A program made the translations under genes and the position numbers. This document shows positions 6,749-31,252 of a stretch of DNA of 43,987 nt, in pieces. Position 1 is the stretch's first letter. The number at the start of each line of letters is the position of its first letter. Source of the stretch: a virus. The notes under the pieces are model-generated. The model was not told the DNA's origin. It saw nothing but the letters and a program-made list of their open reading frames with translations, and searched no databases. The stretch covers positions 1 through 43,987 of the IMG/VR virus record IMGVR_UViG_3300017767_000032; one strand, 5' to 3'.

Positions 6749-8406
6749 ATGAGCTTAAGGACTTCCGCAATTTCCTATTCATGTGCTGGAGGCACCTCAA
6801 CCTTCCTAACCCAACTCCAGTGCAGTACGATATTGCTGACTTCTTACAGAATGCTCCTAAACGGGGAGTCATAGAAGCATTTAGAGGAGTCGGGAAGTCC
6901 TACGTTACGAGTGCCTATGTATGCCATAGGTTACTCCATGATCCTCAGATAAAGGTATTGGTGGTCTCTGCTTCTAAGATTAGGGCTGATGACTTCTCTA
7001 CCTTTACTCAGAGATTGATTCACGAGATGCCTATCCTTCAGCACTTGGTTCCTAAGGATAACCAGAGGCAATCTAAGATTTCTTTTGATGTCGGTCCTGC
7101 TAAAGCATCCCATAGTCCCTCGGTGAAGTCCGTAGGTATCACTGGGCAGTTAGCTGGATCGAGAGCAGACTTAATCGTAGCAGACGATGTAGAAGTTCCT
7201 AATAACTCTATGACCCAGATGATGAGAGATAAACTCTCTGAGGCAGTTAAGGAGTTTGATGCTATCCTCAAGCCTGATGGTATGATCATCTACTTAGGGA
7301 CTCCTCAAACCGAGATGTCCTTGTACGAACAACTCCCTAACCGAGGGTACCAAGTCCGTATCTGGCCTGGGAGATATCCGAACAATAAGTTGAGGGAGAA
7401 GTATGAAGATAGACTTGCTCCCTTTATCTTAGATAAACTTGAGAGAGACCCTAAGGTCGAAGGAGACCCAACAGATCCATTGAGGTTCGATGATGAAGAC
7501 CTCTTGGAACGAGAGTTGTCCTATGGTCGTTCAGGGTTCAATATGCAATATATGCTCGATACGTCATTGAGCGATGCAGATCGGTACCCATTGAAACTCT
7601 CGGACCTCATTGTGATGTCATTGGATGGAGACAAAGCACCAGAGAAACCAATATGGTCGAATGATCCACAAGATAAACTCACTGATGTACCAAATGTAGG
7701 ACTTCCTGGTGATGCTTACTACAAACCTCAAAAGTTGTTAGGAGATTGGATCTCCTACTCAGGCTCTATCTTGAGTATTGATCCTAGTGGGAGAGGTAAA
7801 GATGAGACAGGCTATGCAGTAGTCAAGATGCTCAATGGTTACCTCTATGTCCTAGAGTGTGGAGGGATACAAGGAGGGTACCGAAAGGAGAACCTAGAGT
7901 TTCTCTCAGTGGTTGCTAAGAGGAACAAGGTAAACGCAGTGTTAATCGAGAGTAACTTTGGTGACGGGATGTTCCAAGAGTTACTCAAGCCTGTCTTATA
8001 TAAAGTCTATAATGTGTCTATAGAAGAAGTAAGAAGTAATATACAAAAGGAAAGACGTATAATAGACACGCTGGAACCCGTATGTAACCAACATAGACTA
8101 GTAGTAAACAAGGGTATTATAGAACATGACTACAAATCTGTCAAGAACTATTCTGCTGAAACACAGGCTAAGTATATGTTGTTCCATCAGTTCTCTCGGA
8201 TCACGAGGGATCGAGGTGCGTTGAGTCATGATGACCGCTTGGATGCCTTAGGTATGGCTATTGCCTACTGGGTGGAACAAATGGCTTCCGATGCAGACCA
8301 GAGGATACGGGATCGCAAAGGTGAACTCATGGATCAAGAGCTAGAGAGGTTCATGCAGCATGTGGTTGGCAAGGGTTACCAAGAGAAACACTTGACATGG
8401 ATGTAA
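6745..8406 (+). CDS. Terminase large subunit (DNA maturase B)
   Basis: A 553-aa protein of the T7 gp19 type. It pumps DNA into the prohead by ATP hydrolysis and cuts concatemers. Walker A is FRGVGKS (K51), Walker B is LIVADDVE (D147/D148), and the RNase H-like nuclease begins at SIDPSGRGKDETGYA (D346), with later acidic positions in VLIESNFGDGM and SHDDRLDALGMA. Length is close to T7 gp19 (586 aa). It is the last gene before the presumed physical genome end. Confidence 0.95.
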   Translation: MNELKDFRNFLFMCWRHLNLPNPTPVQYDIADFLQNAPKRGVIEAFRGVGKSYVTSAYVCHRLLHDPQIKVLVVSASKIRADDFSTFTQRLIHEMPILQHLVPKDNQRQSKISFDVGPAKASHSPSVKSVGITGQLAGSRADLIVADDVEVPNNSMTQMMRDKLSEAVKEFDAILKPDGMIIYLGTPQTEMSLYEQLPNRGYQVRIWPGRYPNNKLREKYEDRLAPFILDKLERDPKVEGDPTDPLRFDDEDLLERELSYGRSGFNMQYMLDTSLSDADRYPLKLSDLIVMSLDGDKAPEKPIWSNDPQDKLTDVPNVGLPGDAYYKPQKLLGDWISYSGSILSIDPSGRGKDETGYAVVKMLNGYLYVLECGGIQGGYRKENLEFLSVVAKRNKVNAVLIESNFGDGMFQELLKPVLYKVYNVSIEEVRSNIQKERRIIDTLEPVCNQHRLVVNKGIIEHDYKSVKNYSAETQAKYMLFHQFSRITRDRGALSHDDRLDALGMAIAYWVEQMASDADQRIRDRKGELMDQELERFMQHVVGKGYQEKHLTWM

Positions 8407-9642: not shown

Positions 9643-9729
9643 GGGTGAGTATGCAAACTGGATAAGCAACCTGACTGTAAATCAGGCGTGTGCACACACT
9701 TGTAGGTTCGAGTCCTACCTCACCCACCA
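9643..9729 (+). tRNA. tRNA-Tyr (anticodon GUA)
   Basis: A full class II cloverleaf: acceptor GGGTGAG/CTCACCC, D stem TGC/GCA, anticodon stem CCTGA/TCAGG with loop CTGTAAA (GTA at 9677-9679), a long variable arm, and T arm GTAGG-TTCGAGT-CCTAC. Discriminator A and an encoded CCA end (9727-9729) are present. It sits between early protein genes on the same strand, directly after a hairpin, so it is probably cut from a longer early transcript. Confidence 0.95.
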
Positions 9730-13330: not shown

Positions 13331-13672
13331 ATGGATGAATTAAAAAAGTTAGTGTTAGTACTCAAGGCATTCCAGGATTTAGATCCTGAGATGCAGATAC
13401 CTACGATGTTATCGTATTTGTATCCGAGTATGCAGAACCCGAATAAGCCCTTGACTATTAAGCAAGTGGCTATGAAGTCGGGAGTCAAACAGTCGAGTGC
13501 ATCACGTAATGTGATGGCATTCACTGAGGTGACGAGACATCGTAAGGATGGACATGGGTTACTCAAGACAGAGGAGAATCCTATGTTCCGTACCGAGAAA
13601 CTAATCACACTCACCGATGATGGTGAGAACTTTAAAAATAAACTCATTGAAATCTTGGAGAAGAATGAATGA
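13331..13672 (+). CDS. Winged-helix DNA-binding regulator, MarR-like
   Basis: A 113-aa protein. Residues about 40-60 (LTIKQVAMKSGVKQSSASRN) form a helix-turn-helix with the Ser-rich recognition helix typical of MarR-like proteins. The strand-turn-strand wing follows (GLLKTEENPMFRTEKLITLT), then a dimer-type C-terminal helix. It ends by ATGA overlap with the integrase gene, so the two are co-translated. A perfect palindrome lies just upstream and could be its operator. It probably governs integrase expression or the lysis-lysogeny choice; that role is inferred. Confidence 0.7.
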   Translation: MDELKKLVLVLKAFQDLDPEMQIPTMLSYLYPSMQNPNKPLTIKQVAMKSGVKQSSASRNVMAFTEVTRHRKDGHGLLKTEENPMFRTEKLITLTDDGENFKNKLIEILEKNE

Positions 13673-14655
13673 GTATAAAGCAGAGAGGAAAGAGTTGGGA
13701 AGCGTATGTGAGGAAGGGTAGGGATAGGTACCGAAAGTCATTCAAGTCTCGTGCTGAAGCTGAGTCTTGGGAAGCAATGGCTAAGTACCACATGTCTATT
13801 GGTATGCCAATCGAAACTAAAGCTGCGAGTCAAGGTGAGTGGACCTTGAGGAAAGCAGGTGATGAGACATACAAAACTTATTGGGCTAATGGTAGGTCAC
13901 GTAAGGTTATGCTCTATAATGTAAACATGGTGTGTGATCATTTAGGTAGTAAGACTTTAGTATCATCTATTAATACTGAAACCCTTACTAAATATATGCT
14001 CGACTCTCGTGCATCGGGAAAGAAAAACTCCACTATAAATCGTAGGCTATGTTGTATTAGTAAGATCTTACATCATGCCCAGGATTGTGGGTACTTAACT
14101 TCATTACCTAAGATACCTCTTCAACAAGAGGACAATGGTAAGATCCGATGGATAACTGAGAGGGAAGAGAGTGATATTCGTAACCACTTTGTTGCGGTAG
14201 GTGGTGCTATTCAGATGGCACAACTATTCACAGTAGCAGTGGATACTGGTATGCGTAGATCAGAACTATTAAACCTGAGGGTAGGGGATATTAGTCTCGG
14301 TAAGCTACATATATGGGAGACCAAGGCAAACTTACCGAGGTCTATCCCGATGACCAAGAGAATCGATGGTCAACTAAGTGTGATGATGTATGATAAAAAA
14401 AGTACAGATCATATCTTTACCTTGAAGGTTCATCAGATTAGATCAGCATGGGATAGGATGAAGAATACTTTAGGTCTCCATGACTTAAGGTTTCATGATT
14501 GTAGACACACGTTTGCGAGTAGGTTAGTGCAACGTGGTGTACCTATACCTGAGGTACAAGAACTGTTAGGTCATCGTGACATACAGATGACCATGAGATA
14601 CTCACATTTAGCACCTCAAAACTTAAGGAGTGCCATTGATAAACTCGAAGCATAA
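13669..14655 (+). CDS. int: Tyrosine recombinase (phage integrase)
   Basis: A 328-aa integrase that would recombine attP with a host tRNA gene. The catalytic set is complete: R196 (TGMRRSELL), K219, H276-x-x-R279 (HDCRH), H302 (LLGHRD) and nucleophile Y311 (MRYSHL). The N-terminal about 45 residues resemble an arm-binding domain (QRGKSWEAYVRKGRDRYRKS), followed by a SAM-like core-binding domain at about 60-145. Translation is coupled to the upstream regulator (ATGA). The attP candidate lies 98 bp downstream. Integrases at this position, just before the phage RNA polymerase, are known in T7-like pelagiphages. Confidence 0.95.
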   Translation: MSIKQRGKSWEAYVRKGRDRYRKSFKSRAEAESWEAMAKYHMSIGMPIETKAASQGEWTLRKAGDETYKTYWANGRSRKVMLYNVNMVCDHLGSKTLVSSINTETLTKYMLDSRASGKKNSTINRRLCCISKILHHAQDCGYLTSLPKIPLQQEDNGKIRWITEREESDIRNHFVAVGGAIQMAQLFTVAVDTGMRRSELLNLRVGDISLGKLHIWETKANLPRSIPMTKRIDGQLSVMMYDKKSTDHIFTLKVHQIRSAWDRMKNTLGLHDLRFHDCRHTFASRLVQRGVPIPEVQELLGHRDIQMTMRYSHLAPQNLRSAIDKLEA

Positions 14656-14679
14656 GATGTGCAGTTTTGTGAGGACCAC

Positions 14680-14711
14680 ATGTGGCCTAAGATGTGGCCT
14701 AATGTGGCCTA
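14680..14711 (+). repeat. Three direct repeats, putative integrase arm sites
   Basis: ATGTGGCCTA occurs three times: 14680-14689, 14692-14701 and 14702-14711. They lie between the integrase stop and the attP candidate. Short direct repeats beside the core are typical of arm-type sites bound by the integrase N-terminal domain. The irregular spacing (12 and 10 bp) still places the first bases roughly one helical turn apart. Confidence 0.55.
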
Positions 14712-14752
14712 GTATTCAAGAACTTGTATATGTAAGTGCTTGATATTACAGT

Positions 14753-14798
14753 GCGAGAGTGGTGGAATTGGTAGACACGCAAGATTTAGGATCTTGGG
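14753..14798 (+). other. attP core candidate: 5' half of a tRNA-Leu(UAG) gene
   Basis: The sequence starts as a normal tRNA-Leu: acceptor strand GCGAGAG, D arm GTGGAATTGGTAGACAC, and anticodon arm CAAGA-TTTAGGA-TCTTG with anticodon TAG (14787-14789). After about 14798 it no longer resembles a tRNA: no T arm and no acceptor 3' strand. Half-tRNA sequences next to an integrase gene are the signature of attP. Unusually the phage carries the 5' half, so after integration the rebuilt tRNA would have a phage-derived 5' end and upstream promoter region. Confidence 0.8.
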
Positions 14799-14804
14799 TG
14801 TACT

Positions 14805-14879: not shown

Positions 14880-17375
14880 ATGGATAATGTGCCAATGATT
14901 TCCACAAATGTGGACGAGGGTGTGGACAACAAGAGTTTATTGGAGCAGGAGTATGATCTTGAAAACCACATGAGAAAGAGTGGGATTGATAAGTTTATAA
15001 AGGAAGTACAGAAGGCTAAGGATAGGGGCCAAGAGGGTAATACCTTACATGGTATTATGCTAATGAAGCACTCGGTTGATAAGGTTAGTGAGGGTATCAG
15101 TGAATTTATAAAGAAGGCTAGTAAGGGACAAGCAGAACAAGGCTTTAAGATAGCACCTATGATAGCCATGTTAGACCCTGATCTATGTGCCTTCTTAACT
15201 TTAAAGAGTGTCATTAATATGGTGAGTAATACCCAAAGTTTTATAGGGATTGCTCGTAATTTAGGGATGACAATAGAGGATGAGATTAAGTTACAAGTAT
15301 GGGAAGATCACGATAATAGAATGTTTAAGATTCTTCAGGAGAAGATGACTAAGCACACTGCATCAAGACACTACCGAAGGTACGGATTAATAAAGAGATG
15401 TAAGAAGTATATAGATGTAGAAGAATTAAACCCATTTACTATTCAAGAGAGATGTTTAGTTGGGTCTAAATTGATTGATATACTAGTAGCTACTACTGGA
15501 CTAGTTGAAGTACGTACTATGTCTCAGACTAGAAAAAGAAAACATATAAATATTATACCATCTAAGGGTACAGTTGAGTGGATAGAAAAGGTTAATCAGT
15601 TCGGTCAGGTATTATGCCCTGCTTACCTACCTATGATTACTATACCTCGTAGGTGGGAGGGTATTAATGACGGAGGGTACTATACCTTTAAGATACCTAT
15701 AATTAAAACATCTAATAAAAAGTTTTTAAAAGGTATGAAGCATCATGATATGCCTTTGGAGTATGAGTGTATTAATTCACTCCAAGAAACTTCATGGTGT
15801 ACTAACACTAGAGTTTTAGATGTGATGAATAAGGTATGGGAGAGTGGATTAAATTGGAATGGAATACCAAACCGAGAACCTTTAGATATTCCTCCATGTC
15901 CTGCCCCACTTGGAATGAAGAAGAACGATATGACTCCATCAATGCAGAAGGAGTTTATGAGTTGGAAGTCAACTGCATCTAGTGTCTATAACGAAAATGC
16001 GCGAAGGTTCTCTAAGGTTCTTCAGTTTGTTAGGACATTAAGTATGGCACGGGAGATGGGTCAGTACGATAAGTTTCATTTTGTATATCAATCTGACTTC
16101 AGAGGTAGGAAGTACACAGTGTCCTCGTTCCTCACACCTCAAGGACCAGAGTATGCCAAGGGTTTACTCCTCTTTGGTAAGGGAGAACCCATCGAGACAG
16201 ATGAACAGGCAGATTGGTTAGCGATACATGGGGCCAACTGTTTCGGGATTGATAAGGTACCATTTGAAGATCGCATCAAGTGGGTAGATGACCATGCAGA
16301 ACAGATCATAGCGAGTGCGAGAGACCCTCTCAGTGAACGATGGTGGAACGAAGCGGATGACCCTTGGTTATTCCTAGCGTTCTGCTACGAGTGGTCTGAG
16401 TTCTTAGAGGAAGGGTTTGGATACATGTCTAGGATACCAGTACAGTTAGATGGATCTAACAATGGACTCCAGAATTTCTCAGCTATGCTTAGAGATCCCA
16501 TCGGTGGTAAGGCTACCAATCTCTTACCATCGGATGTACCTATGGACATCTATCAAGATGTAGCAGACTTGGTACTCAAGAAGGTGGAAGCATTGGCAGA
16601 GGATGGTGAACGTATGGCAATCCAATGGAGAGACTCAGGGTTTATCAATCGTAAACTCTGTAAGAGACCAGTGATGGTCGTGCCATACGGAGGTACTAGA
16701 CACTCATGCCGTGGGTATGTACTCCAGTACCTCAAGGATGAGTTCACTAAGGGTTCCCCGAATCCTTGGGCACAGGAAGATTTCGATATGTTCTTACCTA
16801 CTTTCTGGTTATCCCAGATATTATGGGAAGCAATAGGTGAGATCGTAATCGGTGCTCGTGAATGTATGAAGTGGATACAAGACTGTTCTTCTATTGTAGC
16901 TAAAGAGGATAGACCTTTAGTATGGAAGACACCCACTAATTTTGTAGTACACCAAGAGTACTTTGATTACAAGGAGCATCGGATTAATACATATATAGAT
17001 GGCACATTAGTAAAACCTTTAGTGAGGGAACATAACAATAAGATGGATACCTTTCGCAATAGGAATGGGAGTGCCCCTAATTTTGTACACTCCCTAGATG
17101 CTAGTCATTTAACCATAAGTGTGCACATGTGTAATAAGTACGGAGTGACAGATTACTCAATGATCCATGACTCTTATGGTGTCCATGCTCATCATGTACC
17201 GAGGATGGCACATTCTCTAAGGGAAGCATTCGTTGAGATGTACAAGGAGAATGATGTTATCACTGACTTTAGAGGAGATGCAGAAGAATCTGTTGGACTC
17301 TCAATGCCTGAGCCACCTGACCGAGGTAACTTGGATATAAATTCAGTGATAGGTGCTACCTATTTCTTTGCCTAA
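14880..17375 (+). CDS. T7-like DNA-dependent RNA polymerase
   Basis: An 831-aa single-subunit RNA polymerase (T7 gp1: 883 aa) that transcribes middle and late phage genes. Catalytic motifs are present: SDFRGRKYTVSSF, motif A QLDGSNNGLQ with D524 (T7 D537), motif B KRPVMVVPYGG with K595 and Y603 (T7 K631 and Y639), and motif C MIHDSYGVHA with D764 (T7 D812). The N-terminal promoter-binding region is weakly conserved, as expected. The ATG has no good ribosome binding site, and the leader holds a hairpin and the 17-bp motif, so expression may be controlled at RNA level. Located after integrase and attP, as in other integrase-bearing T7-like phages. Confidence 0.97.
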   Translation: MDNVPMISTNVDEGVDNKSLLEQEYDLENHMRKSGIDKFIKEVQKAKDRGQEGNTLHGIMLMKHSVDKVSEGISEFIKKASKGQAEQGFKIAPMIAMLDPDLCAFLTLKSVINMVSNTQSFIGIARNLGMTIEDEIKLQVWEDHDNRMFKILQEKMTKHTASRHYRRYGLIKRCKKYIDVEELNPFTIQERCLVGSKLIDILVATTGLVEVRTMSQTRKRKHINIIPSKGTVEWIEKVNQFGQVLCPAYLPMITIPRRWEGINDGGYYTFKIPIIKTSNKKFLKGMKHHDMPLEYECINSLQETSWCTNTRVLDVMNKVWESGLNWNGIPNREPLDIPPCPAPLGMKKNDMTPSMQKEFMSWKSTASSVYNENARRFSKVLQFVRTLSMAREMGQYDKFHFVYQSDFRGRKYTVSSFLTPQGPEYAKGLLLFGKGEPIETDEQADWLAIHGANCFGIDKVPFEDRIKWVDDHAEQIIASARDPLSERWWNEADDPWLFLAFCYEWSEFLEEGFGYMSRIPVQLDGSNNGLQNFSAMLRDPIGGKATNLLPSDVPMDIYQDVADLVLKKVEALAEDGERMAIQWRDSGFINRKLCKRPVMVVPYGGTRHSCRGYVLQYLKDEFTKGSPNPWAQEDFDMFLPTFWLSQILWEAIGEIVIGARECMKWIQDCSSIVAKEDRPLVWKTPTNFVVHQEYFDYKEHRINTYIDGTLVKPLVREHNNKMDTFRNRNGSAPNFVHSLDASHLTISVHMCNKYGVTDYSMIHDSYGVHAHHVPRMAHSLREAFVEMYKENDVITDFRGDAEESVGLSMPEPPDRGNLDINSVIGATYFFA

Positions 17376-28353: not shown

Positions 28354-28703
28354 TGAAAAGACTTAGAGAAACTGATACTAGTGACTCTCTTTTGAATAAG
28401 TTCAAAGAGCACATGTCTCTAAAAAATGTTAACAAACGTGTACAAGGAGCATCTAAAACTCCTTCAAGAGAACAAATTAAATTAGCTGATTTTAAAAGTG
28501 CTTTTGCTAAAGCAAAGAAAGCAGGTAAAAAAACTTTTGAGTTTAAAGGTAAAAAGTTTACTACTAAAACTGAAGATGAAGCAGTGAGTGCCTTTCAAAA
28601 ATTAATTGCTAGACATGGATCATCACCAGAACAGGTAGAAAAATCAGCTAGAGAAATCCGTGTATCACATGGAATTCCACATCCTAAAAAGAAGAAAAAG
28701 TAA
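28353..28703 (+). CDS. Basic protein with AFAKAKKAGKKTFEFKGK motif
   Basis: A 116-aa basic protein between portal and scaffold. Residues about 48-68 (KSAFAKAKKAGKKTFEFKGK) carry a motif I know from several marine phage structural proteins (AFxxARxAGxxxFxWxGKxY). The C-terminus ends in five lysines after a HGIPHPK phrase. Presumably virion-associated; the exact role is unknown. Confidence 0.6.
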   Translation: MKRLRETDTSDSLLNKFKEHMSLKNVNKRVQGASKTPSREQIKLADFKSAFAKAKKAGKKTFEFKGKKFTTKTEDEAVSAFQKLIARHGSSPEQVEKSAREIRVSHGIPHPKKKKK

Positions 28704-31075: not shown

Positions 31076-31252
31076 ATGGATAACTTAAAGATTAAGAAAA
31101 AGAAAAGTCCTTTACCTACTCATCCTTCAATATTTAAAGGTGACTTAAGAAGTGCAACTGTATCTGATGATCCTACTTCTAAGTATAAAAAGAAAAAGAA
31201 GAAAAAGAAGAAGAAGGTAAAGAAAAAAATACTAGCAAGTAATACATATTAA
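31076..31252 (+). CDS. 58-residue polylysine protein
   Basis: A short gene, MDNLKIKKKKSPLPTHPSIF onward, with a ten-lysine run in the second half. It shares LKIKKKK with the protein at 6443. It lies between the capsid terminator and tail tubular protein A, with two bases before the next ATG. The codons in the Lys tract mix AAA and AAG, arguing against an assembly artefact. Function unknown; DNA or RNA binding is likely from charge. Confidence 0.6.
   Translation: MDNLKIKKKKSPLPTHPSIFKGDLRSATVSDDPTSKYKKKKKKKKKKVKKKILASNTY

Follow-up and report, generated by a model that had tools for sequence, protein, structure and literature searches.

The 5' half of a tRNA-Leu(UAG) at the likely attachment site of an integrase-carrying T7-like podovirus, with SAR324 as its probable host

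The attP motifs of T7-like cyanophages all match the first half of a tRNA-Leu gene (PMC8776855), and in one such cyanophage, S-TIP37, deletion of either the integrase gene (int) or attP abolished integration, both being reported as required (PMC8776855). Classical 3'-half phages carry the opposite half of the target tRNA in attP, with the tRNA rebuilt at one junction. The T7-like pelagiphages HTVC011P and uv-Fonsiphage-EPL have int followed by tRNA-Leu sequence and the RNA polymerase (RNAP) gene, a tRNA-Leu(UAG) target and an anticodon-loop core (PMC6811365), and a tRNA-dependent lysogeny layout has already been proposed for a T7-like SAR11 phage (PMC6811365). In actinobacteriophages, a short core together with a replacement tRNA is the layout of tRNA-dependent lysogeny, in which a tyrosine integrase splits the host tRNA at a core flanked by arm sites, and the tRNA is not rebuilt but complemented by that of the phage (PMC10865867).

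The window analysed here, meaning the whole stretch of 43,987 nucleotides of IMG/VR record IMGVR_UViG_3300017767_000032, contains a MarR-like regulator, a tyrosine integrase and a T7-type RNAP in the order marR-int-att-RNAP, which is also the order in HTVC119P, HTVC200P, LUZ100 and P-SSP7. These genes and the half tRNA with its repeats are on the + strand. The MarR-like transcriptional regulator (13331..13672; phrog_9665, E 2e-16; no Pfam match) shares 44% identity with the regulator of a SAR324 relic prophage described below, and overlaps by 4 bases with int (13669..14655; PF00589, E 5e-28; phrog_1), in which residues R196, K219, H276, R279, H302 and Y311 are invariant in a 12-member alignment. 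A leader (14656..14752) separates int from the half tRNA, and the single-subunit RNAP gene follows at 14880..17375 (phrog_414, E 6e-249).

As in P-SSP7, the first half of the tRNA lies directly downstream of int, in the same orientation and upstream of RNAP, and the window shares with both P-SSP7 and S-TIP37 the 5' half, the tRNA-Leu target and a position about 95-100 bases after int. The target in P-SSP7 is, however, the tRNA-Leu(UAA) of a cyanobacterial host, compared to the tRNA-Leu(UAG) of SAR324 for the window, and the shared block ends with the anticodon loop in P-SSP7 but continues through the stem in the window. The pelagiphages resemble the window in gene order, target and core, yet carry a complete replacement tRNA-Leu where the window has a half, and HTVC011P has a separate short core besides. 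With the actinobacteriophages the window has in common the integrase type, the predicted splitting of the host tRNA and the arm sites around the core, but its half would rebuild the tRNA through a 44-bp block, in contrast to the short core (about 10 bp) of tRNA-dependent lysogeny that does not, and its only tRNA is a tRNA-Tyr instead of a complete tRNA of the target isotype. Whilst the tRNA would be rebuilt at one junction as in the classical phages, the half carried is the opposite one, and in the window design the host promoter would leave the rebuilt tRNA. The 5'-half design is already known from T7-like cyanophages, and what is new here is the link to SAR324, the integrated relic and the family comparison.

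The half tRNA (14753..14796, anticodon TAG at 14787-14789) is identical at 44 of 44 bases to tRNA positions 1-44 of the tRNA-Leu(UAG) genes of three SAR324 genomes, and covers the 5' strand of the acceptor, the D arm and the complete anticodon arm. The original prediction, made from the window alone, had read 46 bases as a regular tRNA-Leu to just past the anticodon stem; this holds for the first 44, but in the two-base tail (14797..14798) the window has G at 14797 where the SAR324 hosts have T, agreement resuming at 14798, so the exact block is 44 bases long. Two related phages, L005 and L007, match the tRNA-Leu(UAG) half at 46/46 bases. No complete tRNA-Leu was found in the window by ARAGORN, whose sole call was a tRNA-Tyr (9643-9729), and a search of Rfam gave no match at the half-tRNA site. 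The comparison with bacterial tRNA-Leu genes that had been proposed as a check was positive, with the exact 44-mer occurring in three contigs among 84,980 species genomes (GTDB-species collection), all from SAR324 and all containing intact tRNA-Leu(UAG) genes with no insertion. It also occurs in four viral contigs, with integrase on one side and RNA polymerase on the other in 4/4, the integrase being truncated in L007. This match to tRNA-Leu(UAG) is far beyond chance. The half tRNA and adjoining phage flank (14753-14838) are predicted to fold into a long hairpin (z -3.4) without a poly-T tail, which may reflect the core and arm sites or may shield the half tRNA in the phage transcript.

Around the half tRNA are short repeats of the kind expected for integrase binding. 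On the left (P) side, TGTGGCC occurs three times (at 14681, 14693 and 14703; 14681..14709), these being the only copies on the + strand of the whole window, and on the right (P') side TGTGGAC occurs twice (at 14909 and 14921; 14909..14927), spaced by 12 bases as in the first left pair and having only one further copy elsewhere on that strand. The arm-type repeats vary by phage (TGTGGCC in L005, TGTGGTA and TGTGGCA in L007, ATGGCG in L094), and those to the left and right of the core agree within each phage and change together between phages; being phage-specific yet matched across the core, they behave as expected for integrase arm sites. Between them, a repeat search identified an inverted repeat (14775..14801; 91% complementary) formed by ACACGCAAGAT and ATCTTGGGTGT around five bases of the anticodon loop, with 11-base arms (14775-14785 and 14791-14801) that hold the anticodon arm and extend beyond the tRNA sequence. 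This repeat probably represents the core-type integrase sites and the overlap, within which strand exchange would take place. Judged by its sequence, a half tRNA with arm-type repeats on both sides is the anatomy of a working attP, and the int and RNAP flanks, the arm repeats, the core inverted repeat and the identity to a host tRNA bear out the proposal that the site is an attP with the 5' half.

The arrangement expected after integration was observed in a related relic prophage. Among 52 SAR324 genomes, G020 contains the best match to the integrase (about 43-44%) and is the only one with a match to the RNAP. Contig C18 of this genome has, in order, host sequence, a truncated 5' half of tRNA-Ser(CGA), an N-terminal RNAP fragment, a MarR-like gene, int and a complete tRNA-Ser(CGA), the three phage genes being all that is left. 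The 5' half of the tRNA forms a 44-bp direct repeat, the first copy (28481-28524) being the truncated half followed by the RNAP fragment and the second (31083-31126) lying inside the complete tRNA (31083-31171), right after int. The same relic, with both att sites kept, is also recorded as L049 10481-13172 (G020:C18:28481-31171). The right flank of C18 has 78-90% identity to stretches of eight other SAR324 genomes, which places the contig in the SAR324 group, and in the relative G014 the tRNA-Ser(CGA) is intact and its left flank matches. The att arrangement in G020 and the intact site in G014 show that a related phage integrated by the 5'-half design. The relic integrase groups with that of the window on the integrase tree (97/80), and the free phage L094 carries a tRNA-Ser(CGA) 5' half. 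In G020 no other tRNA-Ser(CGA) was found than the one after int, in which both the 5' half and the leader derive from the phage; a second tRNA-Ser(CGA)-like match in this genome (C39) was rejected as a chance 16-mer with no tRNA. The expectation that the phage supplies both the 5' half of the restored tRNA and the DNA in front of it is therefore realised in an integrated relic of a related phage. Junctions (attL or attR) of the window phage itself, which the original prediction had suggested looking for, were found neither in the 52 SAR324 genomes nor in the four viral contigs with the 44-mer, all of which are free attP sites.

Taken together, the site is best read as the attachment site of an integrase-carrying T7-like marine podovirus, probably of SAR324, that rebuilds tRNA-Leu(UAG) on integration, a reading to which a probability of about 0.86 is given. 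The sequence identity, the anatomy, the conservation and the arrangement in the related relic are observed, whereas integration by the window phage itself is what we infer. The integrase would bind the arm repeats on both sides and swap strands inside the anticodon loop of the host tRNA-Leu(UAG). Since identity to the tRNA does not continue beyond the anticodon loop in P-SSP7, L107 and L117, strands must be exchanged no later than the end of the loop, and the loop itself is the position that we infer. At attR, on the int side, the phage 5' half and the host 3' half would form a full tRNA behind phage DNA, with the leader (14656..14752) as its upstream region, and at attL the host promoter and host 5' half would face the phage RNAP gene. 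As attP lies between int and RNAP, integration would separate RNAP from the early region upstream; repression by MarR has been proposed to silence RNAP in relatives (PMC10134795). Most likely, the rebuilt tRNA would be made as part of the marR-int transcript, or else start from an atypical promoter, with RNase P trimming its 5' end.

The phage may instead be essentially lytic, though competent to integrate, with the site serving transient integration only, in which case the rebuilt tRNA would hardly matter for host fitness. This is a real possibility, albeit not the favoured one, since T7-like cyanophages of the 5'-half design integrate at low frequency and gave no stable lysogens (PMC8776855), and L007 is without most of its int yet has kept the half tRNA. 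In that phage (reverse strand, 6870-7156), int is cut to its C-terminal 53 residues and the 46-base tRNA half is intact. Against a purely transient role, one SAR324 genome has a fixed relic prophage whose tRNA was rebuilt, and several phages have kept the half without any change, which suggests that a working product is selected for.

With regard to how the rebuilt tRNA would be expressed, it had been predicted that the stretch 14656-14752 must supply a promoter. The best score for a sigma-70-type promoter there was no better than in shuffled sequences (p 0.59), a terminator search between int and the half tRNA was negative, and arm-type repeats fill part of the leader. In many relatives the tRNA begins only 9-60 bases after int, with the gap made up largely of arm repeats. 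Having no standout promoter, no terminator and such short gaps, the simplest source of transcription would be read-through from the marR-int operon, which would suffice for the rebuilt tRNA and is the most likely route; a host promoter drives the joint transcription of marR and int in LUZ100 (PMC10134795). The requirement for a promoter in the leader is thus not upheld. That the 97-base leader nevertheless holds a non-canonical promoter of its own, as originally proposed, is rather unlikely: L005, L031 and, despite its greater divergence, L007 share ACTTGTATATGTAAGT with the window, and in P-SSP7, in contrast to the window, a strong sigma-70-like promoter (p 0.003) precedes the half tRNA by 19 bases, but the score at shuffle level in the window, the lack of sigma-70 promoter enrichment across the integrase family as a whole and the short, repeat-filled gaps of the relatives argue against it.

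The host is probably a SAR324 bacterium, as suggested by sequence matches. Every SAR324 genome with a match has exactly one site, allowing up to 3 mismatches, and the near-complete G027 has one tRNA-Leu(UAG) among 26 distinct tRNAs read, of 34 matches. In these incomplete genomes, a second host copy of tRNA-Leu(UAG), the other way out that had been envisaged, is therefore unlikely. SAR11 was considered as host from the similarity to HTVC011P and rejected, as the match is merely 87% and the tRNA there is complete. The tRNA-Tyr of the window (9643-9729) is a complete tRNA-Tyr(GTA), and is present in L008 too. It has no full-length match in the SAR324 genomes, which, with the conserved nature of tRNA halves, would fit a different bacterium carrying the same half; such a host is nevertheless improbable, given that the exact match is restricted to SAR324 among the 84,980 species genomes and that the nearest integrated relic sits in SAR324. 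Finally, imprecise excision might have left the half tRNA behind without a function, such an origin having been proposed for the complete tRNA-Leu genes that LUZ100 and pelagiphages carry near int (PMC10134795). This is highly improbable, as the arm repeats, the core inverted repeat, the exact target identity and the relic prophage all indicate an active att site.

The sequences were read by hand to assign the attachment-site states in the integrase family, and the figures cover the integrase relatives among the matches listed. Among these relatives, the gap between int and RNAP holds a 5' half, a 3' half (L142, L095, L099, L121, L122 and L124) or a complete tRNA-Leu, which in some of the listed phages sits just upstream of int instead; in others no tRNA sequence was recognised. 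The 5' halves derive from Leu(UAG), Leu(UAA), Leu(CAA), Ser(CGA) and Arg(UCU) tRNAs. This recurrence of Leu, Ser and Arg halves, together with the shared design of the T7-like cyanophages (PMC8776855), does not support the rarity of the 5' half that was implied in the original prediction. The tRNA-Arg(UCU) half lies 60 bases past int in L093 and L119, a target beyond the Leu and Ser tRNAs, and in L114 (3781-4082) a tRNA-Leu(UAG) 3' half, a tRNA-His and a complete tRNA-Leu(UAG) stand in a row after int.

Within the complete-tRNA class among the matches listed, 30/36 phages have a second copy of the 7-base anticodon loop of that tRNA no more than 450 bases from int, against an expectation of 1.7 and a maximum of 6 over 500 shuffles, and in many of them this copy starts 1-24 bases after the tRNA. 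A complete tRNA-Leu with a loop copy (in gaps such as those of L065 to L153) appears to be a tRNA-dependent lysogeny layout outside the actinobacteriophages. In two contigs, L123 and L084, the core is followed at the contig end by a separate 3' half of tRNA-Leu, which is what a junction with the host would look like. On the integrase tree of the relatives among the matches listed, at least five changes are required to account for the 5'-half state, and the wider clade of the window (99/92) contains, among those matches, 5' halves and complete tRNAs only.

It is tentatively proposed, at somewhat less than even odds, that one family of T7-like phage integrases repeatedly swaps a 5' half, a 3' half and a complete tRNA with a loop core at the same slot, and that the 5'-half form couples the viability of the lysogen to expression of the repressor operon. 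If this is true, integration by the 5' half would make expression of an essential host tRNA part of the phage lysogeny operon and bring the phage RNAP under the host tRNA promoter, with the consequence that a single host tRNA would come to depend on phage transcription. Through these findings SAR324, which is widespread in the ocean, is connected with a group of T7-like phages, and the integrated relic shows the fate of a 5'-half site. The family also offers a natural comparison of integration that rebuilds a tRNA with integration that replaces it, the relationship between which has been termed unclear (PMC10865867).
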